Below, piece after piece: positions 1,631-48,091 of a stretch of DNA of 63,329 nt (position 1 is the first letter of the stretch; each line of letters begins with the position of its first letter). A program made the position numbers and the translations under genes. The stretch is from the NCBI GenBank assembly GCA_030613245.1, contig JAUWMI010000025.1, positions 1-63,329 of the forward strand, read 5' to 3'. The DNA is from Candidatus Sumerlaeota bacterium (GTDB taxonomy: Bacteria > Sumerlaeota > Sumerlaeia > MWCT01 > JAUWMI01). The notes beneath the pieces were generated by a model. The model was not told the origin of the DNA, ran no database searches, and saw only the letters and a list, made by a program, of their open reading frames with translations.

Positions 1631-4105
1631 TTAATCCACTGCTGGCGTGTCTACGAGGACCTTGCTCCGCTCAGTGGCGCGGAACCGAATCTCCTCATTC
1701 TCCAGATAGGCTTCGACGTCAGTGTTCTCCGGTATAGTGCCATCAATAATCAGCTGTGAGAGAGTATCTTCGATATAACGCTGGATGGTCCGCCGGAGTG
1801 GGCGCGCACCGTACTCTGGATCATAGCCTTTTTCTACCAGAAAATTCCTTACCTCTTCACTGATACGAATGGTGATGTTTTTATCAACCAGCCGCTCATT
1901 CACCTTCCGCATCATAATATCAACGATCGTTTTAATAGCTTCAACACTGAGGGGGCGAAATACAATAATTTCGTCAATCCGGTTCAGAAATTCAGGATTG
2001 AAGGTCTTCTTGACCTCAGCCATGACCTTATCTCTCATGGCTTCATAGCTCGCCTCCTCATCGTGCAAGTGGAATCCCATCCCACTGACCTTTCCGATGC
2101 GCTTCGTCCCGATATTGGAGGTCAAAATGACCACGGTATTGCGGAAATCCACCACATGGCCCCAGCTGTCTGTCAGACGGCCATCGTCAAAAACCTGCAG
2201 CAGAATGCTAAAGACGTCTGGATGGGCCTTTTCGATCTCATCCAGGAGTACCACGGAATACGGTTTCCGCCGTACCTTCTCGGTCAGCTGCCCTCCCTCT
2301 TCATAGCCTACGTAACCTGGCGGTGCTCCGAGTAGACGTGAGACTGAGTACTTCTCCATATACTCTGACATATCAATCCGCACCAGGGCATCTTCGTCGC
2401 CAAACAGGAACTCTGCCAGCGCTTTAGCCAGCTCGGTTTTCCCTACGCCAGTTGGGCCGAGGAAGACGAACGACCCTGTGGGACGTACGGGATCCTTCAG
2501 GCCTGCGCGAGCCCTGCGAATGGCTTTCGCGAGAGTGCCGAGCGCTTCGTGCTGACTGACTACCCGTTTAGAAACCTCGGCTTCCATCTTCAGAAGCTTC
2601 TGCGTCTCTCCCTCTTCGAGCTTCATAATCGGAATCCCAGTCCATTTGGAGACGATATAGGAGATATCTTCCGGGCCAATTACCTTCATGTAATTCTTAT
2701 TCAATCTCTTCTGATGCCATTCGCGAAAGAGTTGTTCTTTGCGGCGAACCAGCTCATCGCGGTGATCTTTGACTTCCTGGCATTTTTCAAACTCCTGGGC
2801 GTTCTTAAGCTGGCGCAGCTGTTCGTCGTAATCAGCAATCTGCTTCTCGATGTCTTTGAGTTCCTGGGGTTTGATGTTAGCCTGGAGTCGTGCGCGCGAT
2901 CCTGCCTCGTCCATCACGTCAATGGCTTTGTCGGGAAGAAAACGGTCGCTCACGTAGCGCTCTGTCACATGCACTGCTGTGTGGATTGCCTCGTCTGAGA
3001 TAATCACGCCGTGGTGCTGCTCATAGCGGCTACGCAGACCCTTGAGAATATCCACGGTCTCTTCAATCGTTGGTGGATTAATAGTAATCGTCTGGAAGCG
3101 GCGCTCCAGTGCGCCATCCTTCTCGATATATTTGCGATATTCCTCCTGGGTTGTTGCGCCAATGCACTGGAGCTCACCTCTTGACAGTGCGGGCTTCAGC
3201 ATGTTCGACGCATCAATAGCACCTTCCGCGGCGCCTGCTCCCACCAAGGTGTGGAGCTCGTCAATAAAGATCACCACGTCTTGCGACCGACGAATCTCCT
3301 GCATGATAGCTTTCAAGCGTTCCTCGAATTGGCCTCGGTACTTCGTGCCTGCCACAATAGCCGCCAGATCAAGCGACAGCAGGCGTTTGCCAGCCAAGAG
3401 CTCCGGGATGTCGCCGGCCACAATCTTCTGAGCGAGGCCTTCAACAATCGCGGTTTTGCCGACTCCTGGTTCACCCAGAAGAATCGGATTATTCTTGGTG
3501 CGCCGGCACAGTACCTGAAGAATCCGCTCGATCTCGTCTTCCCGACCAATCACCGGATCGAGTTTTCCTTCGCGCGCCAGCTGAGTCAGGTCACGTCCAA
3601 AGGTATCCAGTGCCGGGGTGCGCGATTTCTCAAAGTCGCCTTTCGACTTAGCACCCGTACCACTATTACCTTCAATGAGGTTAAGAACTTCGCGCTGCAC
3701 CTTGGCGAAATCAATGCCGAAATTCTTAAGGCATTTCGCGGCCAGCGTATTCTCCTCTTTGATCAAGGCCAGCAAGAGATGTTCCGTGCCGATCCAGCTA
3801 TGCTTCATATGTTGGGCAATATATTTCGCTGTTTCAGTAATCCGCTTTGCTTCGGTATTTGGCGGAAATAGGCCAACCGGCTGCCCTTTCCCAACATCCA
3901 TCATCCGCTCAAGCTCCATCTTCACGTCTTCGAGATCAATCTCAAGATTATGGAGCGTCTGCACCGCCAGGCCGTCGCCTTTGCGAATAATGCCCAGGAG
4001 ATAATGTTCAGGGCCGATGTAGTCATGTCCCAACCGGCCAGCCTCGGCCTTACTCATACGAATGACTTCTTTCCAGCCGGGGGTATATGGGACCTTTTCC
4101 AGCAT
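1631..4105 (-). CDS. clpC: ClpC, AAA+ unfoldase subunit of the Clp protease
   Basis: ClpC unfolds proteins in the cytoplasm and feeds them to ClpP; in Firmicutes it recognises phosphoarginine tags made by McsB. The 824-residue length matches ClpC. Visible parts are a double Clp-N domain (about 1-145), a first AAA+ module with Walker A GEPGVGKT near residue 212, a coiled middle domain (about 410-480) with a UVR-like helix, and a second AAA+ module with GPTGVGKT near 548. A hydrophobic MGF tripeptide in the second module is a plausible ClpP-docking loop. The gene lies downstream of mcsA-mcsB on the same strand but about 220 bases away and with its own candidate promoter. No ctsR or clpP is present in the window. 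Confidence 0.97.
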
Positions 4106-4178
4106 GAGCGCACGCTCCTCTCATGTTACAATTTTCACAAATACCTCGCACTTCACACTGTTAGAAGAATCAAGTATT

Positions 4179-4206
4179 AGAATATCAGCCCTACAGCAAA
4201 AGTCAA
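4179..4206 (-). promoter_or_regulatory. candidate sigma70-type promoter of clpC
   Basis: On the minus strand TTGACT (4206-4201) and TATTCT (4184-4179) are separated by 16 bases, about 75 bases upstream of the clpC start. An overlapping TTGACA lies at 4213-4208. No CIRCE element and no properly spaced CtsR heptad pair was seen. Confidence 0.45.
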
Positions 4207-4329
4207 TTGTCAAATCGTATAACCGAGCTTTGCATAACCTATTGAGGCAGGAACCTGGGCGACTGGACCACATTTCAACAGACTGCTGTGACTAGAAACC
4301 GAAAAGGGCAAAAAAAGGAAAACAGTCTA

Positions 4330-5409
4330 CTAATTATCAGAGATGATACCGTGAAAGCGCTTGCGCAGCAGGCCAGCTCTTGCTATGTCGCGGGCCTCGC
4401 TCCCAACGTTTCCTCCTTCCCTTAGATCCAGATGTGCAGGCTGAATTTCAATGATCAGCTTGTTCAACTCGCTATGGGTAAACGAGGAGAAATAGCCTCG
4501 GTCAATCCCCAGTCGAATGCGACTAAGCAGTTTCATTGCCTCGGACGAATCAATCATGCGGGCATTACTGAGCACTGCGTAGGAACGCCAGATAGCGTCG
4601 TCAATTGCGTTACTTTTCTTGGCAAACAGCTGCTCGCGCGCCTGTTGTTCCCTGGTGAGAATCTGTGTCACGACCTTGTCCAGAATCTCAACGATTTCTT
4701 CTTCGCTCTTACCCAGAGTCACTTCATTGGAGATTTGATAAAAATCACCGATGTATTCCGAATGCTCTCCGTAAAATCCGCGAATGGTCAGTCCATAGGG
4801 CTGAACAAGAGACAGGATCTTATCAATCTTCTGACTTAACGCCAATCCGGGCAGATGCATCATAACGGATACGCGAAGGCCAGTGCCCGTATTTGTGGGA
4901 CATGTTGCGAGATAGCCAAATTTTTCCGAAAACGCGTATTCTACCGACACATCCATGCGTCCATCAATTTCATCAATTGCTGTCAGCGTATTCCGGAGTT
5001 GAAGACCGGCCATGATACACTGCATCCGGATGTGATCTTCTTCGTTCACCATTACTGATCTGTTGCACTCATGGCTCAGGTAGACAATGCGGTGCTCCCC
5101 CCCTTTTTCTAACTCTGCACTGATAATACGGCTCTCCTTCAGATAGCGGCGTTCCAGCCGCGGGACCTTTGCAATGATGATTCTATCGCTGGCACCTAGC
5201 ACGTCCTGACTGGCGATAGACTTATCAACGGTTTCGACAATCTTTGCAAGCTCATCGGGCTTGGCGTAAGGAGCAAAGGGAAGTCCCACAATGTTACGGG
5301 CGTAGCGCGACCGCGTGGAAACTACAATATCCATATACGGTCCGGAGGTATCAACCCATTTATGCGAGTCAAGAACCATTGGATTGAACATATCCCAGCC
5401 TCTCGACAA
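4330..5409 (-). CDS. mcsB: McsB, protein arginine kinase
   Basis: McsB uses ATP to phosphorylate arginine side chains, marking proteins for ClpCP and tuning stress regulators. The 359-residue protein shows the guanido-phosphotransferase signatures: STRSRYARN near the start, VNEEDHIRMQ, CPTNTGTGLR and YGEHSEYIGDFYQISNEV. Near the C-terminus RDIARAGLLRKRF matches the RDxxRA phosphoarginine-binding motif that gives McsB its allosteric activation. It follows mcsA with only 3 bases between, so the two are almost certainly co-transcribed. Internal ATG codons near residues 7 and 11 are alternative starts. The kinase family outside Firmicutes is patchy, so the complete motif set is worth noting. Confidence 0.95.
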   Translation of the reverse strand: MSRGWDMFNPMVLDSHKWVDTSGPYMDIVVSTRSRYARNIVGLPFAPYAKPDELAKIVETVDKSIASQDVLGASDRIIIAKVPRLERRYLKESRIISAELEKGGEHRIVYLSHECNRSVMVNEEDHIRMQCIMAGLQLRNTLTAIDEIDGRMDVSVEYAFSEKFGYLATCPTNTGTGLRVSVMMHLPGLALSQKIDKILSLVQPYGLTIRGFYGEHSEYIGDFYQISNEVTLGKSEEEIVEILDKVVTQILTREQQAREQLFAKKSNAIDDAIWRSYAVLSNARMIDSSEAMKLLSRIRLGIDRGYFSSFTHSELNKLIIEIQPAHLDLREGGNVGSEARDIARAGLLRKRFHGIISDN

Positions 5410-5412
5410 CCA

Positions 5413-5937
5413 CTATTCCTCGTCCTGATTCTCAAGGGATTTAATCTTATCGCGCAACTGGGCAGCTAGTTCAAAATTCTCCTGCTCGATCGCCTCTTCC
5501 ATCTGCTTGCGCATCTGCCGAATGTCCCGCTGCATCGTGATCCTGGACTGAAAGCGCTTTGGCACCTTGCCCTGGTGGCGCGTACTCCCATGGAACTTAC
5601 GCAAATCGGCAAGCAAATGTTCGCCAAAACTGTCGTAGCAGTCGGCACAGCCAAGGAACAGGCTTTCACGGTATGTTGCAAACGGCAGGCCACATTCTCG
5701 ACACGTGATGTCAACGTCCGTAGTACGCTTCTTCTCTTTTTCATTGGCAAGCAGGCCCGCCAGAATACTGTCAAGATTCGCCTGAGCTCCCGCCAGCTTC
5801 TTCTGGTACGGGCTGATCTCCGCGGCGCAACTCTGACAGAGGTTCAACTCCTTCACGCGCCCATTTACGATACGAGTCAGCTTGACCGTAGCGAAACTCT
5901 TATTACATTTCATGCAGATTACTTTATTAACAAACAC
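5413..5937 (-). CDS. mcsA: McsA, zinc-finger activator of McsB
   Basis: McsA binds and activates the arginine kinase McsB. The 174-residue protein has four CxxC pairs (CMKC, CQSC, CREC, CADC) that can bind two zinc ions, and a C-terminal UVR motif (EQENFELAAQLRDKIKSLE) like that of UvrB/UvrC and the ClpC middle domain. It is the first gene of the mcsA-mcsB pair; clpC follows. There is no ctsR upstream, unlike the classical Firmicute operon, so the regulation must differ. No good ribosome-binding site precedes ATG 5937; the ATG at 5913 would cut into the first zinc finger and is less likely. Confidence 0.93.
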   Translation of the reverse strand: MFVNKVICMKCNKSFATVKLTRIVNGRVKELNLCQSCAAEISPYQKKLAGAQANLDSILAGLLANEKEKKRTTDVDITCRECGLPFATYRESLFLGCADCYDSFGEHLLADLRKFHGSTRHQGKVPKRFQSRITMQRDIRQMRKQMEEAIEQENFELAAQLRDKIKSLENQDEE

Positions 5938-37745: not shown

Positions 37746-40029
37746 AAACAGGAGTGGGGGTTGGAGTAGGTGTGGCTGTTGGCGTGGGAGTGGGGGTCGG
37801 CACAGAGACTTCATCAAATACAGCGAATCCGTCCCGGGCACGGGAACCGATTGAAGTGAAGCCGCCTCCTATGCAAAGTGTTTTCCCGTCTTGTGATAGT
37901 GCCAGTGCATAGACGATACCATTCGCACCAGGATCCCATGCTGTGGCGTTGCCGGTTGAGGCATCCAGTGCCGCGATATTGCTGCGGTTTTCGCTTCCAA
38001 TATAACTGAACCCACCCCCAGGGTAGACCGTCGAGCCATCCGGTGATATTGCAAGCGAAAAGACGCCGCCGTTTGGATTTGGATCCCAGGATGTGGCATG
38101 TCCCGTCGAGGCATCGAGCGCAGCGATATTGTTACGTGCCTGGCCGCCGATGGAGTCGAAGTTCCCTCCGACATAAACCGTCGAGCCATCCGCCGACACC
38201 GCAAGTGAATCAACGTAAGGATACGGGCTACCGCTTGCAATTGGATTCCAGGCTGTGACGTTGCCAGTCGAGGCATACAGAGAAGCGATATTCTTGCGCG
38301 CGAGACCACCAATGGAGGTAAAGTCTCCTCCTACGTACACAGTATTACCATCTGCCGATAGTGCAACGGCTCTAACCTCGCTATCCGGATTGGGATTCCA
38401 GGCTGTTGCATTCCCGGTCACGGCATCAAGTGCAGCGATGTAATTTCGTTCCTGACCACCGATGGAGGTAAACACACCCACGGCATAGATCGTTGTACCA
38501 TCTGGTGACACTGCCAGCGATGAAACGTAAGGGTATAAGAGCCAGCCACCGCTGGCATTTGGATTCCAGGCAGTAACGTTGCCAGTTAAGACATTCACCG
38601 CAGCGATACCGTTGCGCTCCTGGCCTCCGATTGAAGTGAAGGGCCCTCCAACATAGAGTATTGTATCGTCCGGTGACATCGCCAGAGAATATACCGGACC
38701 ATCCACATTAGGGTTCAAAGCCGTAACCTGTCCTGTTGCTGCATCCAGCGCGGCAATATTATTGCGCACCTGGCCTCCAATCTGCGTGAAGCCGCCTGCT
38801 ACGTAAAGTGCCGTTCCGTCTTGTGATAGTGCCAGTGCATAGACGATACCATTCGCACCAGGATCCCATGCTGTGGCGTTGCCGGTTGAGGCATCCAGTG
38901 CCGCGATATATTTCCGCCTGTGTCCGCCGATCTCACCCCAGGCGAATTCACCTCCAGCATAAACTGTTGTGCCATCTGGCGACACTGCCAGCGCAATGAC
39001 AGCCCCTCTAGCATCAGGATCCCATGCCATAGCATTACCCGTCAATGCATCCAGTGCGGCAATCCGATTGCGTAACCAACCGCCGATTTCGGTGAATCCA
39101 CCTGCAGCGTACACTATCGTACCATCTGGCGATAAAGCCAGGGCAAGGACACCCCAGTTAGCATCAGGATTCCAGGCCGTAGCGTTGCCGGTCGAGGTTT
39201 CCAGCGCGGCAATATTATTGCGCACCTGATTGCCAATAGCCATAAATATGCCCCCAGCGTAAACTGTTGCTCCATCTGGCGAAACTGCCAGCGCAACGAC
39301 GTCACCGTCTGCCCTGGGGTCCCATGGCGTAACATTACCGCTCAAGGCATCCACTGCCCCGATATAATTGCGCCATTGGCCGCCCACAGAAGTAAAAGCA
39401 CCAGCCAAGTAAAGCGTCGTGCCATTTGGCGACATAACCAGCGCAGATACAAAGCCATTCGTGCCAGGATTCCAGCTCGTCGCATAGCCGATAGTGGGAT
39501 CCAGGGCTGCGATATTACTGCGTGATTGGCCTCCGATCTGGGTAAAGTTGCCCCCTGCGTAGACCGTGGCACCATCTCCTGAGATTACAAGTGAACTAAT
39601 AGAGCCATCAGCGTTGGGATCCCATGCTGGATCAACACTTCCATCGGACAGGATGTGGGCAATATTGTTACGATCTGCGCCACCTACAGATGAGAATAAA
39701 CCACCGATATACCAGCCTCCTGTGCCATCTGAGATTACAGCGAGAATTAGTCCGTCCACTTCCGGAAATCCAGGCACCAAGAGCCCTGACGTTGTGTCAA
39801 TAGCCGCGCCACTACCCGTTTGAGGACTTACCCGCGTGAACTCGCCGCCGATGTAGATGGTATTTTCGGTAAGCGCGATAGCATATACCCCCCACCCATC
39901 CGTTACCCAAAACTTCGGGTTGGGATTCTCAGACAGCTCCGCAGATGCCAGCAGCGCGCCGAGAACCACAACCATTGCAGCCAGTCCCAATCGTACCGCT
40001 TTTCCGATCACATTGTTCATCATTACCAT
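37252..40029 (-). CDS. secreted beta-propeller repeat protein with C-terminal module
   Basis: 925 residues with a signal peptide ending near ASAEL. From about residue 40 to 750 run some 15 repeats of 45-50 residues with the pattern NNIAALDASTGNATAWDP then LAVSPDGTTVYAGG then FTSIGGQ, close to the DUF5122 beta-propeller family. A Pro-Thr linker (about 755-770) leads to one copy of the module also found in the subtilase and FN3/LTD protein. Two 94-bp stretches in the repeat array are identical, pointing to recent gene conversion or duplication. It is extracellular and presumably a binding or scaffold protein. Possible starts are ATG 40029 or ATG 40020. Confidence 0.88.
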   Translation of the reverse strand: MVMMNNVIGKAVRLGLAAMVVVLGALLASAELSENPNPKFWVTDGWGVYAIALTENTIYIGGEFTRVSPQTGSGAAIDTTSGLLVPGFPEVDGLILAVISDGTGGWYIGGLFSSVGGADRNNIAHILSDGSVDPAWDPNADGSISSLVISGDGATVYAGGNFTQIGGQSRSNIAALDPTIGYATSWNPGTNGFVSALVMSPNGTTLYLAGAFTSVGGQWRNYIGAVDALSGNVTPWDPRADGDVVALAVSPDGATVYAGGIFMAIGNQVRNNIAALETSTGNATAWNPDANWGVLALALSPDGTIVYAAGGFTEIGGWLRNRIAALDALTGNAMAWDPDARGAVIALAVSPDGTTVYAGGEFAWGEIGGHRRKYIAALDASTGNATAWDPGANGIVYALALSQDGTALYVAGGFTQIGGQVRNNIAALDAATGQVTALNPNVDGPVYSLAMSPDDTILYVGGPFTSIGGQERNGIAAVNVLTGNVTAWNPNASGGWLLYPYVSSLAVSPDGTTIYAVGVFTSIGGQERNYIAALDAVTGNATAWNPNPDSEVRAVALSADGNTVYVGGDFTSIGGLARKNIASLYASTGNVTAWNPIASGSPYPYVDSLAVSADGSTVYVGGNFDSIGGQARNNIAALDASTGHATSWDPNPNGGVFSLAISPDGSTVYPGGGFSYIGSENRSNIAALDASTGNATAWDPGANGIVYALALSQDGKTLCIGGGFTSIGSRARDGFAVFDEVSVPTPTPTPTATPTPTPTPVSPPYTFNFDTGADGWIFSGTIIPFDSGAQTSSGGHLGLSPSGSSYCFGFWNSPEISVHNGVTYKAEFSLASSLSTGELVPQCRLRANQVNGYGSATREVISGGDGGGAPLNTPRTYDLLFTPLFSGAEGIVTLSFDILNFDPSDDGNAWIYLESVTIEEVSVSP
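37886..37979. repeat. identical 94-bp segment, copy 1
   Basis: This stretch, from CCGTCTTGTGATAG to GCCGCGATAT, is identical over 94 bp to 38816-38909. It encodes part of one propeller repeat (TAWDPGANGIVYALALSQDG). Neighbouring repeats are far more diverged. Confidence 0.95.
38816..38909. repeat. identical 94-bp segment, copy 2
   Basis: This is the second copy of the 94-bp segment at 37886-37979, 930 bp away in the same gene. Sequence on either side diverges at once, as expected for gene conversion between repeat units. Confidence 0.95.
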
Positions 40030-43945: not shown

Positions 43946-44005
43946 GGCTAACGGCTGCGAGCTGAGCGGCCCCCGCGGCGCGTCCGCTGCAGCGACTGGT
44001 TCGGC
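43946..44005 (-). repeat. attC-like site A
   Basis: Read on the minus strand: GCCGAAC, then CAGTCGCTGCAGCGGAC, a GC-rich turn, CCGCTCAGCTCGCAGCC and GTTAGCC, 60 bp in all. The outer heptads and the CGCTGCAGCGG / CCGCT...AGC arms form the imperfect inverted repeat expected of integron attC sites (RYYYAAC ... GTTRRRY). It lies 42 bases after the stop of the DUF2061 gene. Confidence 0.75.
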
Positions 44006-44046
44006 AACTTGTTACGAATGTGAAGTCTGACACTGGCCCCTGGAAA

Positions 44047-44268
44047 CTAAATCTGATACTCTGGATCCCGGATGCGGCCAAAAGAAATGCGGTTCCATAG
44101 TCGTTCGTGAAAGTAATAGGCGACAAGCTTGATGACCGTATCGATTCCCCCAATAATGACTCCAAACCGTAAGCTCCCCGTGATGATCCAGGCCACTGAG
44201 GCGGTTATGAGAAGGGCCACCACACGCCAGCTCAATGCTTTTACGATGCTTCTCCGATGAGATTCCAT
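44047..44268 (-). CDS. DUF2061 small membrane protein
   Basis: 73 residues. KALSWRVVALLITASVAWIITG and FGVIIGGIDTVIKLVAYYFHERLWNRI match the DUF2061 family, which has two membrane segments and a conserved RxxSFGR-type end; the function is unknown. It is bounded by attC-like sites A (downstream) and B (upstream), as a single-gene cassette would be. The overlapping frame 43911-44165 is a shadow. Confidence 0.88.
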   Translation of the reverse strand: MESHRRSIVKALSWRVVALLITASVAWIITGSLRFGVIIGGIDTVIKLVAYYFHERLWNRISFGRIRDPEYQI

Positions 44269-44443
44269 TCTTTTTTCATTCCTTTTCTGCTGGTCTGAAT
44301 GACTGAAAAACCCTTAAAGAGCGTGTTAAACGTAGATTCAATATCATCGTACGCGTTGACTTTGCATTTGACCATCTGAGGTCGCCAAGTTCCTTCGCAC
44401 TGTTGATGATGCTCACGAACGCCCCCTTAATGGCCCATTACAG

Positions 44444-44501
44444 GCCTAACTCAGAGCTCAGCAGCCCGCCGCGGCGGGTCCGCTGCAGCGAATTGTTAGG
44501 C
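44444..44501 (-). repeat. attC-like site B
   Basis: On the minus strand GCCTAAC, AATTCGCTGCAGCGGAC, CCGCCGCGGCGGG turn, CTGCTGAGCTCTGA and GTTAGGC, 58 bp. The outer heptads are perfect complements. The two arms pair with unpaired extra bases, the hallmark that sets attC apart from plain palindromes. The rest of the gap 44269-44651 holds nothing recognised. Confidence 0.85.
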
Positions 44502-44651
44502 ACATCTGTTTCTGGAATCCTAAATCGCGATCATTATACAATCATATTATGTTACACAAATCTATCTTGAAGGCTTTAAAATGTGATGTAACGTAGATTT
44601 CATTAATCTAAATGTTGGATATCCAAATTGTCTAGCAATGAAATCTACAAC

Positions 44652-44885
44652 CTAGTATTCTTCTTCAAGTTTGAATTCTTGCCGCAGACTGTTGTAACGC
44701 GCTATTAATGCGCGTTCATGTCGAACCTCATCTTGATAGAAACCCTCAAAGACTTTCTTCAATAGTTCATCATCACACAACTCCTTTGCGTCTTTATACA
44801 TTTCCTGGGCTTTTCGTTCCGCTTCAATAGCTTTCTTAAACATAAGAAAGAGTTTTTCAATCTTCTCAGGTAGACCTGATGTCAT
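44652..44885 (-). CDS. small ferritin-like (rubrerythrin-type) protein
   Basis: 77 residues from ATG 44885, preceded by AAAGGAGGAG. KKAIEAERKAQEMYKDAKEL and FYQDEVRHERALIARY carry ExxxxxxxY and DExxH helices that contribute metal ligands in rubrerythrin-like four-helix bundles. At this size it would form only two helices, so it must dimerise to bind a di-iron site. A role in peroxide or iron handling is family inference. It lies between attC-like sites B and C. Confidence 0.75.
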   Translation of the reverse strand: MTSGLPEKIEKLFLMFKKAIEAERKAQEMYKDAKELCDDELLKKVFEGFYQDEVRHERALIARYNSLRQEFKLEEEY

Positions 44886-44966
44886 CGGTTCTCCTCCTTT
44901 GCTTTCAATCAATATCCCACTTTTCTTTGGTGGGTGTCATTTATTATTCGAAGGCATTAATCCAAA

Positions 44967-45026
44967 AGCTAACCTGGTAAGAAAGCGCTTCAGCGTGTGT
45001 CCGTCAGGTTCGGCGATTTGTTAGGC
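44967..45026 (-). repeat. attC-like site C, partly degenerate
   Basis: On the minus strand GCCTAAC, AAATCGCCGAACCTGACGG, then a weakly pairing middle, CAG and GTTAGCT, 60 bp. The left half matches sites A and B; the right arm is eroded. It overlaps the last 12 codons and stop of the radical SAM gene, as attC sites often abut cassette gene ends. Confidence 0.6.
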
Positions 45027-46765
45027 TTTTTACTGAATACCCGCTTATGCAGATAGCCGATAGCAGACTGAGTGCCATTGTCTAGCTCAGAAAGCAGTTC
45101 AAGAGATGGTACATAATTAGGATCTATTCGGAGGGATTCTTGTACCTGAGCCTGGGCATCTTCTTTTCTGCCTATTTGCAACAACGCCTTGGCCAATAAA
45201 TGCCGGGCTTCCAGATTTTCTGGCTGAATCCTTATGAGCCGCTCGTAAAATTCGATCGCTTTGGATGGCCGCCCAGTGCTCAAATAAAGCCAAGCCAGAT
45301 GTCCCAAGGCGGAAGCTCTTGTCGAGTAACGGCGGGCCAGTTTCTTCAGTTGGCGTATGCTATGATCAATTTCACCAGAACGAGCCGTCTCAAGCGCTCT
45401 TTCCAGAGCGGCTTGCTTCGAATGTTCTCGATGAACCAGGACGCGAAGCAGATAAGGCACGCGGCAGCATAATCGCCAGGTTAAAGCGGAAAGGCTTACA
45501 AGATCTGCGCTGACAGGTTGTTTCCACCTTTTGTTCATCAATGTGATGTAGTTCTTAATAAGAATTTGATTGCGAGCAAGGGATTTGAATTTGGGACGAT
45601 GGACGTGGCGGGCGATATGATTCCAATTTGTGTTGATGATATCCTGTTTGCATTTATCCCAAAGGTGCGTGCCTGGAAACGGGGTAACTTGACTGACGTT
45701 AGTTAGAGTAGGCTGTGTTTCCCGGACAAATTCGAGGGAGAGTTTCATATCTTCCTCGGTCTCTCCAGGATAACCGACCATCATATTGCACCAGGTATTG
45801 ATACCGAGTTCGTTGCAGGTTTTAATGAATACTGCGTTCTTTTCAACCGTGTTTCTCTTATTCATTAAGTCAAGCATTCGTTGGGAACCGCTTTCGGCAC
45901 CAACGATAACCAAATCGCAACCGGCGTCGCGCATGGCAGTCAGTGTTTCACGGTCGATGTCACTCCGGCTCTGGCAAGACCATTTGAGCCCTAGAGGCCT
46001 GGCAGCCTCACAGAATTCAAGCACGATGCTTTTGGGATATGGAAAAGTATCATCGTCGATGGCGAAGCGGGTAATGTTAAATCGGTGGATTGCATCCTCA
46101 ATTTCAGCAACAATGTTTTCAGTGCTGCGCCTGCGAACTTTTCTCCCGAATAGTAGTCTCTTTGTAGGTTGACAGTAGTTGCACTCGAACGGACATCCGC
46201 GGGAGGTGGTCATGTTGATGCTACGCAGGCGAGCAGGAAGGTCTCCATACTTCTCTCGCGCTGGAAAGGGAAGAGAGTCGAGATCCTCAATGAAGGCCTC
46301 TCCATGATAATGCTTCCACTTGCTGCCATTGGTTTCGCGTATCCAAGCACGTTCGATCTGATGCGGCTTTCCTTTAATATAGTTCAGGTACTGAATAAAG
46401 CTATGCTCGGCTTCACCTATGAATATCGCATCGACGCAAGATTGGCTCATGAGGTGTTCCGGAGCAACGCTTGCATGCGGGCCGCCGAATACCAACTTCC
46501 CTGAAAAACCTGCCTTTCGAGCGCGCTTCGCCAAGTTTAGGGCTGTCCTGGCCTGCATAGTCATTGCGGAAAAACCGATCACATCATAGTCGTTGATGTG
46601 TTTCATACGGGGAAATTTACGTCCATGGCGTGCATCATAAACGTCCACAGTTGCCCCAAGAACCTTTTCCGCAACAGCGGCAAGATACAGGATGCCCATC
46701 GGCAGGCAATCGGGCAGGACTTTTCTATCGATTTCGGTTGCGGGATAAACCAAAGCAATTCGCAC
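44990..46765 (-). CDS. B12-binding-type radical SAM protein with C-terminal TPRs
   Basis: 591 residues. Residues 1-140 resemble a cobalamin-binding domain (DVIGFSAMTMQA, VFGGPHASVAPE). Near residue 192 SRGCPFECNYC gives the CxxxCxxC cluster motif; IVGAESGSQRMLDLMNK and MVGYPGETEEDM are typical of this class B-like group. Residues about 455-580 hold three TPR-like repeats (ALGHLAWLYLSTGRPSKAIE, ARHLLAKALLQIGRKEDAQ). Members often methylate or rearrange lipids, natural products or tRNA; the substrate here is unknown. It fills a 1.9-kb cassette-like interval between attC-like sites D and C. Confidence 0.88.
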   Translation of the reverse strand: MRIALVYPATEIDRKVLPDCLPMGILYLAAVAEKVLGATVDVYDARHGRKFPRMKHINDYDVIGFSAMTMQARTALNLAKRARKAGFSGKLVFGGPHASVAPEHLMSQSCVDAIFIGEAEHSFIQYLNYIKGKPHQIERAWIRETNGSKWKHYHGEAFIEDLDSLPFPAREKYGDLPARLRSINMTTSRGCPFECNYCQPTKRLLFGRKVRRRSTENIVAEIEDAIHRFNITRFAIDDDTFPYPKSIVLEFCEAARPLGLKWSCQSRSDIDRETLTAMRDAGCDLVIVGAESGSQRMLDLMNKRNTVEKNAVFIKTCNELGINTWCNMMVGYPGETEEDMKLSLEFVRETQPTLTNVSQVTPFPGTHLWDKCKQDIINTNWNHIARHVHRPKFKSLARNQILIKNYITLMNKRWKQPVSADLVSLSALTWRLCCRVPYLLRVLVHREHSKQAALERALETARSGEIDHSIRQLKKLARRYSTRASALGHLAWLYLSTGRPSKAIEFYERLIRIQPENLEARHLLAKALLQIGRKEDAQAQVQESLRIDPNYVPSLELLSELDNGTQSAIGYLHKRVFSKKPNKSPNLTDTR

Positions 46766-46886
46766 TATAACTGCCTCATTACGGCTTCTTGCATTTTGCT
46801 TAATCCTTCACCAAGGCAACGCACCGCCTCTGCTTTTGCCCCCATCTTTTAAGGGTGTCTCTCACTCATTTCCGTGAACAAGATCT

Positions 46887-46946
46887 TCCTAACGCTGTGC
46901 ATCAGCCGTCCGCCGCAGGCGGATCGCCTGCAGTGAATGGTTCGGT
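46887..46946 (-). repeat. attC-like site D
   Basis: On the minus strand ACCGAAC, CATTCACTGCAGGCGATCCG, CCTGCGG turn, CGGACGGCTGATGCACAGC and GTTAGGA, 60 bp. ACCGAAC is the exact complement of GTTCGGT at 47232-47238, the point where the first cassette would begin, as expected for a cassette that once circularised. Confidence 0.75.
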
Positions 46947-46952
46947 TCCTGT

Positions 46953-47204
46953 TTATTCCGAATTGCTTCTCTTATTGCCTCGAAACATGCCGAGTATGCT
47001 CGAAAGAACAGCTCTGTCGGACACTTCGGCTGCTTTTTTCAAGATGATGGCGAAGAATGCACCAGTAATTATGCCAATGCCCAAGAGTCTGAGTTCGCCG
47101 TCATGCAAGAAGACAACAACCAAACCCAGCAACGAGGGTATGGCTAACGCAAGAACCGTTGAATAAGGAGGAGGAATTCTGTCCAGTTTTCGAAAGATGT
47201 TCAT
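46953..47204 (-). CDS. small two-span membrane protein (first cassette)
   Basis: 83 residues from ATG 47204, which has GAAGGAGGG upstream. Two hydrophobic segments (TVLALAIPSLLGLVVVFL, LLGIGIITGAFFAIIL) sit between basic ends. I do not recognise the family. It is the gene nearest the relic integrase and is followed at once by attC-like site D, the position of the most recently captured cassette. Confidence 0.7.
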   Translation of the reverse strand: MNIFRKLDRIPPPYSTVLALAIPSLLGLVVVFLHDGELRLLGIGIITGAFFAIILKKAAEVSDRAVLSSILGMFRGNKRSNSE

Positions 47205-47231
47205 ACAACCCTCCTTCGTGTTTTTCCTGGA

Positions 47232-47305
47232 ACCGAACATTAATTATCTGGGTCAATATAAGACACCAAAAATGCGAACCCGACAGTATAAGATGCCAGA
47301 AAAAT
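47232..47305 (-). repeat. attI-like region with direct repeats
   Basis: The minus strand reads GTTCGGT at 47238-47232, a cassette-junction core. Immediately upstream are two direct repeats on the plus strand, CAATATAAGACACCAAAAAT (47254-47273) and CAGTATAAGATGCCAGAAAA (47284-47303). Integron attI sites carry a core plus accessory direct repeats bound by IntI. The call depends on position between the integrase remnant and the first cassette. Confidence 0.45.
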
Positions 47306-47344
47306 CGTCCTAAGAATTGGAACGAGTCCTCTCTTTTCAGTTAT

Positions 47345-47718
47345 TTACATTGTGTTACGGTCTTTAGCTTGGAGTCTTATACTGATCCGTATAATACTCT
47401 TTGCATAGATCATAAACTGCAAAGCATGCGCCGGACTCCGTACCCCTTTGCCTCCTCGATTAAGCACATGCGTGTACATCATCGCGGTTTTGAGATCCTT
47501 AGATTCATTAACAAGAAAATATATCTTAGCCGCTGACGTGCTATCAAGCTTTTTTCCCTCTTGCCAATCCCAATAATAGCATGACGTAATAATCCTTTTT
47601 CGCTTACCCTCTTCGGGCCTAATGACGATGCGCCCGTTACCGATGTCCGAGTCTTTAAGCCGGGTAACCTCCCGTCACAAGCTGGAGGAAAAAGCCAGTT
47701 CCAATAAAATCCAGCATC
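47345..47718 (-). pseudogene. intI: decayed integron integrase (IntI) remnant
   Basis: Minus-strand fragments in order: FIGTGF (about 47710), then after a frame change and stop REVTRLKDSDIGNGRIVIR (about 47670-47610), then EEGKRKRIIT, a non-homologous stretch, and finally KDLKTAMMYTHVLNRGGKGV with RSPAHAL (about 47490-47420). The last segment is the characteristic IntI C-terminus, with the catalytic tyrosine in MMYTHVLN and the GGxGVRSP tail. The HxxR box and most of the catalytic domain are missing, so it is dead. It reads the same way as the cassettes, unlike class 1 integrons. No clear N-terminal domain is visible in 47719-48091, which holds nothing else recognised. Confidence 0.75.
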
Positions 47719-48091
47719 CAATTGTTTAACTTAACGAGGAACTCCTTGCGTGGTAAGCAGACAAGGTTTTTCAGTCGTCAATTGGGAAAAACCCACATGA
47801 AATGAAAGCATCGGTTGGAGGGATTCTAAAAAGAATGAGGATTTTATCATTGAGCGAGGGCATAAAGTTTATATACCCAGAGCGTAGGCTTCGTTTTGCA
47901 ATCCCGAGATGCTTCAGGGAAGAAACACAGATGGCTTCCACTTATTGTACAAGGCAAGACTTGTTGTCTACATTTGTAGTCAAAATGCGTCCACTTTGCG
48001 TCCCAAAACGTCCTTTCTTATCGTTTTCAAATTGGGACAGTTAAAAAGTTACCTGCACTTTATGCCATTGATATCGTTAAAAATAAAATGG

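Follow-up and report, generated by a model that had tools for sequence, protein, structure and literature searches.

Can an integron go on receiving cassettes after its integrase gene has been broken? The question is raised by a 63,329-nucleotide stretch of DNA from a Candidatus Sumerlaeota bacterium (the whole stretch is called the window below), which is contig C49 of a 4.29-Mb metagenome-assembled genome of 97 contigs (96% complete). Judged by its sequence, the locus between positions 43946 and 47859 is a relic of a chromosomal integron, with a dead integrase gene (intI), an attI site and four cassettes each closed by an attC site. In our opinion it is rather probable that we are looking at an integrase-less relic of the reverse type, that this and other platforms descend from a copy with the same deletion in intI, and that their cassettes were served in trans by an integrase encoded elsewhere.

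Is the broken gene that of an integron integrase at all? A remnant of IntI on the minus strand had been proposed by an earlier sequence-only reading of the window, which also asked for a comparison with XerC/D, and in that comparison only the integron-integrase models matched. The tail of the relic (47500-47423, minus strand) matches positions 289-314 of TIGR02249 at E 1.6e-7 in a family-model search, and a second integron-integrase model, PRK15417, matches the frame of the remnant (P0002) at E 1.5e-4, whereas no XerC/D model matches this frame at E up to 10; an origin from XerC or XerD is thus rejected. We place the pseudogene at 47420-47859 on the minus strand, on the strength of the TIGR02249 tail, of the spacing between patch I and the YTHVL motif and of homology with the relic on contig C25, which reaches upstream to about 47859; the 5' limit is uncertain. 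Patch I lies at about 47665, and from there to YTHVL the window has some 180 bp, whereas both intact IntI1 and the IntI of locus L131 have 159 residues (477 bp). The missing stretch amounts to about 95 residues and includes the HxxR box, whose absence had been noted. What had been taken for a frameshift has to be corrected: the frame is free of stops from 47674 to 47346, and the normal stop after ...SPxDAL is gone (TTTGCAG in the window, TTTGTAA in the copy on C30). Hence the damage consists of an internal deletion, decay and a lost stop codon, not of a simple frameshift. The gene is transcribed toward the cassette array and not away from it.

Are the four sites that follow true attC sites? 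At least three attC matches in one orientation had been suggested as support, and a covariance model built from class 1 integrons only returned four. This model was derived, independently of the window, from ten attC sites of plasmid-borne cassettes (aadA1, aadA2, aadA5, aadA16, aacA4, blaVIM-1 and others) and was run over the whole 63-kb window without speed filters; the E-values of this model, and of the attI model used below, are rough. Its four best matches in the window are exactly the four attC-like sites first described, all on the minus strand. The best preserved is attC 3 (44444-44501; 46.9 bits, E 1.6e-9), followed by attC 4 (43946-44005; 28.9 bits, E 6e-5) and attC 1 (46887-46946; 22.9 bits, E 0.002). 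The degenerate attC 2 (44967-45026) comes fourth with 13.8 bits and E 0.46, and we accept it despite the weak score because it lies on the right strand and between two genes. When 18 hits of the model are aligned (all from the same genome, three sites of the window included, except one from a relative), the covariation of paired columns far exceeds that of shuffles and slid controls, although the alignment was fitted to the structure of the model and leans toward it. Counted by hand over the whole array, the R boxes pair at 24 of 28 positions along cassettes and at 22 of 28 along sites, a difference that carries no information. A Blast search of attC 3 against plasmids gave no match.

The attI region (47232-47422, minus strand) has its core at 47264-47233 and ends in the junction GTTCGGT at 47238-47232, just where it had been pointed out, with the TATAAT-like hexamer GATAAT immediately before it. 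The heptad ACCGAAC (46946-46940) of the attC nearest to intI had been said to complement this junction. Indeed it does, and the exact complement between the junction and the extended R'' box of that site reaches 10 bp; compared with the same interval, none of the 775 other AAC-ended 15-mers of the window equals it. A unique complement of 9-10 bp occurs in the same layout at C65 of this genome, at C99 of the genome G003 and at locus L118 of Candidatus Methylomirabilis. These three loci and the window also have in common the core TTATRYNGA-N(13-16)-GTT, whose GTT is that of the junction, the shared core lying about 23 bp before it. The direct repeats described earlier (ATCTTATACTGTC / GTCTTATATTGAC) are present and form part of the core, which is found at many other loci. 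In 10 of the 13 units examined, the junction is preceded at a distance of 4-5 bp by a hexamer like TATAAT (a consensus match only, with at least 4 of 6 positions agreeing), which would suit a cassette promoter. The attI of the window is 91% identical over 187 bp to the copy on C30, and the identity ends at GTT; its match in the attI model has an E of 0.006 in its own genome, the site being part of the training set.

What, then, should the locus be called? Like a complete integron, it has attC sites between cassette genes in one orientation (four, one of them weak) and, by sequence alone, an attI adjoining intI; what it lacks is a functional intI, since the relic has an internal deletion and the genome shows no intact IntI. 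With at least two attC sites and no integron integrase it also qualifies as a cluster of attC sites lacking an integron integrase (CALIN). The reverse-type arrangement, in which intI and cassettes are on the same strand and attI lies behind the 3' end of intI, is seen in the window, at C65, at C99 of G003 and at L118. In its present-day form the locus is a CALIN with its attI retained, and in its working, now or formerly, it would be an integron.

The platform does not stand alone in its genome. No intact IntI was found in the 4.29 Mb: the best match to TIGR02249 reaches 68 bits against a cut-off of 265, and it is a stop-bearing N-terminal piece on C10. This piece (locus L031, 5432-5725) comprises the N-terminal third of IntI with three stops, lies at a contig end and is the sole N-terminal intI piece seen in the genome. 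Further attC sites are located on C19, C2, C52, C25, C30, C65 and C37. A model of the attI core that uses sequence letters only, and whose training set consists partly of sites from genomes later scanned, finds 14 attI cores on 11 contigs of this genome at E up to 0.02; five of them (on C41, C87, C8, C15 and C97) are outside the training set and the other nine inside. Decayed 3' ends of intI precede attI at C49, C65, C30, C25, C86, two of the three C19 sites and C52, where the attI is a weaker match, while C37 has an intI relic without attI. Shared by C25 and C52 (loci L211 and L212) are the attI (86% identity across 229 bp), part of a gene (79%) and an attC (96%); on sequence grounds this is a second case of shared cassette DNA, besides that of cassette 1 described below.

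Beyond this genome, attC sites occur in 7 of the 39 genomes of the class and the attI core in 5 of the 39, four genomes being common to both sets, an overlap that is not fully independent as these genomes supplied part of the training sites of the attI model. Ten attI cores are found in G003, a member of the same order but of another family. None of the 61 genomes searched has an IntI over the cut-off. IntI-like matches in G004, G022 and G045 scored well and were discarded as they adjoin IS91-type transposases and are not IntI. At L118, an organism different from that of the window, two copies of an intI tail plus attI stand about 1 kb apart (2987-4255) and are 93% identical over 258 bp; both end at GTT, and each is then followed by its own cassette and attC.

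Did cassettes move after intI was broken? The same internal deletion is found in five relics (C49, C30, C37, C25 and C86), which are 70-77% identical to each other, with the exception of C30 and C37 at 94%. A deletion common to all five must have preceded most of their divergence. The window's cassette 1 has a twin on C37, identical at 300 of 316 positions (95%), and the homology sets in at the R' junction; in the window this junction comes after attI, in C37 after another attC (recognized by eye; the model gives it 9.3 bits). The intI relics of the same two contigs are identical at only 140 of 198 positions (71%), and the contrast has a P of 6e-14. Similarly, while the attI of the window and that of C30 are 91% identical, the adjoining relics are 74% identical (P 1.2e-6), and the sequences after GTT are unrelated. 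With one cassette at 95% in two places, and relics at 71% that share a deletion, the cassettes were probably still mobile after the deletion, by way of an integrase in trans as the simplest reading has it; together with the conserved attI these data suggest recombination after the breakage of intI. The array had been described as frozen, and this part of the earlier interpretation fits the present state only, although the relic integron itself, with its dead intI, attI and attC sites, is borne out.

Among the 84 codons of cassette 1, 6 show silent and 5 show replacement differences between the copies, so that selection on this gene cannot be judged from them; counted otherwise, 7 of 84 third positions and 4 of 63 non-coding sites differ. 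The attC sites of the two copies (46946-46887 in the window, 6211-6142 in L208) have the same 5' half and different loops and 3' halves.

We would explain these observations as follows. Several platforms would descend from one copy in which intI had already been deleted in part, and the insertion and movement of cassettes would have been continued in trans by an integrase that was lost later or is absent from the assembly. The attI may have outlived intI either because it carries the promoter of the cassettes or because it was still a target of recombination. Today the cassettes are probably fixed genes that are read from the attI side. Several points weigh against this explanation. The homology of cassette 1 has its 3' end within attC and not at the cut site, which means that a later change affected one of the two sites. 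As the relics are short, the deletion that they share is documented by about 200 bp in each copy. Cassette and relic are under different constraint, though the cassette shows few differences even at its silent and non-coding sites. Part of the pattern could be imitated by gene conversion or segmental duplication, and as we deal with an assembly from a metagenome, an intact integron may be missing from it. Finally, the score of attC 2 is near chance level.

That last point is shared by the most sceptical view, namely that there is no integron here, only chance palindromes beside a stray recombinase fragment. GC-rich palindromes are common, and attC 2 alone is indeed at the level of chance (E 0.46). 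Yet the covariance-model scan and the comparison of IntI with XerC/D contradict this view: the top four matches in 63 kb fall on one strand and between genes, the tail is specific to IntI, the attI passes the junction test and cassette 1 is present twice. We find it barely credible. A more serious thought is that these are ordinary dying integrons, each unit acquired complete and losing its own intI separately, with nothing happening in trans. The genome does contain several attI types side by side, which are met again in relatives, intI pseudogenes are common generally (PMC2426708) and the relics of G003 show other truncations; however, the same internal deletion in five relics is hard to reconcile with separate losses, and so is cassette 1 at 95% between platforms whose relics are at 71%. 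This makes it unlikely in our judgement, without making it negligible. Still less plausible, and in our opinion quite improbable, is that dead platforms were multiplied by transposition or segmental duplication, their cassettes being carried along or swapped by homologous recombination with no integrase involved. The 94% identity of the C30 and C37 relics would agree with it, as would the attI and the attC common to C25 and C52, but the homology ends at GTT junctions with unrelated cassettes behind nearly identical attI sites, and neither common flanks nor common transposon ends were seen in an all-against-all comparison of the units (no dedicated search for such ends was made). Targeting of tRNA genes was considered as a mechanism of spread and put aside, as a tRNA gene lies nearby in just two cases, the window (tRNA-Gly) and C25 (tRNA-Lys).

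A bolder version of service in trans deserves mention, although we hold it to be doubtful: the loci may form a non-autonomous integron family, in which a platform already without its catalytic middle multiplied as many dispersed attI-headed units per genome, within one order but in two of its families at least, and was refilled in trans by an integrase encoded elsewhere, while the fragment of intI tail plus attI moved about as a cassette does, with GTT cut sites as its limits. It also speaks for our main explanation that the start of the C37 relic coincides exactly with the R' box of a 134-nt attC (30.8 bits, E 5e-7). The relic on C30 has this same starting point and is preceded by a sequence that resembles a decayed attC by eye and to which the model gives no score. 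Of the features of a delta-attI-type cassette, that is an attI fragment at the 3' end and GTT cut sites on both sides, the C37 relic has the start at the R' box and has lost its attI.

How does this compare with known systems? CALINs, which have been proposed to be degraded integrons (IntegronFinder, PMC9024848), likewise have several attC sites in one orientation and no functional integrase; here, in contrast, attI and the intI tail are retained, and the attI platform occurs about 14 times in one genome. The chromosomal integrons of Treponema (PMC3607928) also have intI directed toward the array and a junction heptad equal to the R' box, which served there to locate attI; in the loci described their intI is intact, while here it is a relic in many copies. 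In the delta-attI-type cassettes of class 1 and 2 integrons (PMC12901181) a fragment of attI is likewise a movable cassette end inside arrays, but those are short attI1 or attI2 ends behind resistance genes in the presence of an active integrase, whereas our unit is an intI tail plus attI ahead of the cassettes, for which we infer recombination. Inactivated integrases are frequent, some through duplication within a genome (PMC2426708), although those cases concern frameshifts, stops and indels in single genes and not one deletion in at least five dispersed copies. For many dispersed attI platforms in one genome a limited literature search returned no paper, which is weak evidence of absence. 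New relative to the earlier reading are the absence of an intact intI from the genome, the dispersed attI cores (about 14), the shared deletion and the twin of cassette 1.

Tools that count intact intI and attC would see at most a CALIN in this place. About 14 attI platforms without an integrase suggest that integron platforms are able to spread and to be supplied with an integrase in trans, in the manner of non-autonomous transposons, and that an attI can outlast its intI by still working as a promoter or a target. The attI core provides a search pattern for such platforms elsewhere, which makes the idea of one IntI serving many attI sites testable.

The cassettes themselves all carry a gene on the minus strand. 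Cassette 1 (46953-47204) encodes a hydrophobic protein of 83 amino acids without a Pfam family. The gene of cassette 2 (44990-46765), whose 3' end overlaps attC 2, encodes a protein of 591 amino acids with radical SAM, B12-binding and TPR domains according to Pfam. Cassette 3 (44652-44912) specifies a ferritin-like protein of 86 amino acids (Pfam Ferritin, E 3e-4, under the curated cut-off), and cassette 4 (44047-44268) a DUF2061 membrane protein (Pfam, E 2.4e-22). Past the last attC there is a racemase gene (43888-43190), which we do not count among the cassettes.

The window has a second attI core at 451-482 on the plus strand (E 2.5e-4, a site of the training set), at the far end of the contig and in the opposite reading direction to the relic integron; no IntI tail was found upstream of it. 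Between 95 and 482 a short HicA-like frame (by eye, interrupted) is followed by a degenerate attC-like sequence (GCTAACAAAGCGCTGCAGCCGG...GTGTTATGCC, not scored by the model) and then by this core. On C65 (locus L032, about 5070-5640) an array of diverged 'TTTACAAGATTCTTTACG...' repeats is situated just upstream of the intI relic, and similar repeats are present on C26 and C37. Elsewhere in the window, about 1.7 kb at 37847-39577 are strongly repetitive (62-67% self-similarity) and possibly represent a gene for a repeat protein.
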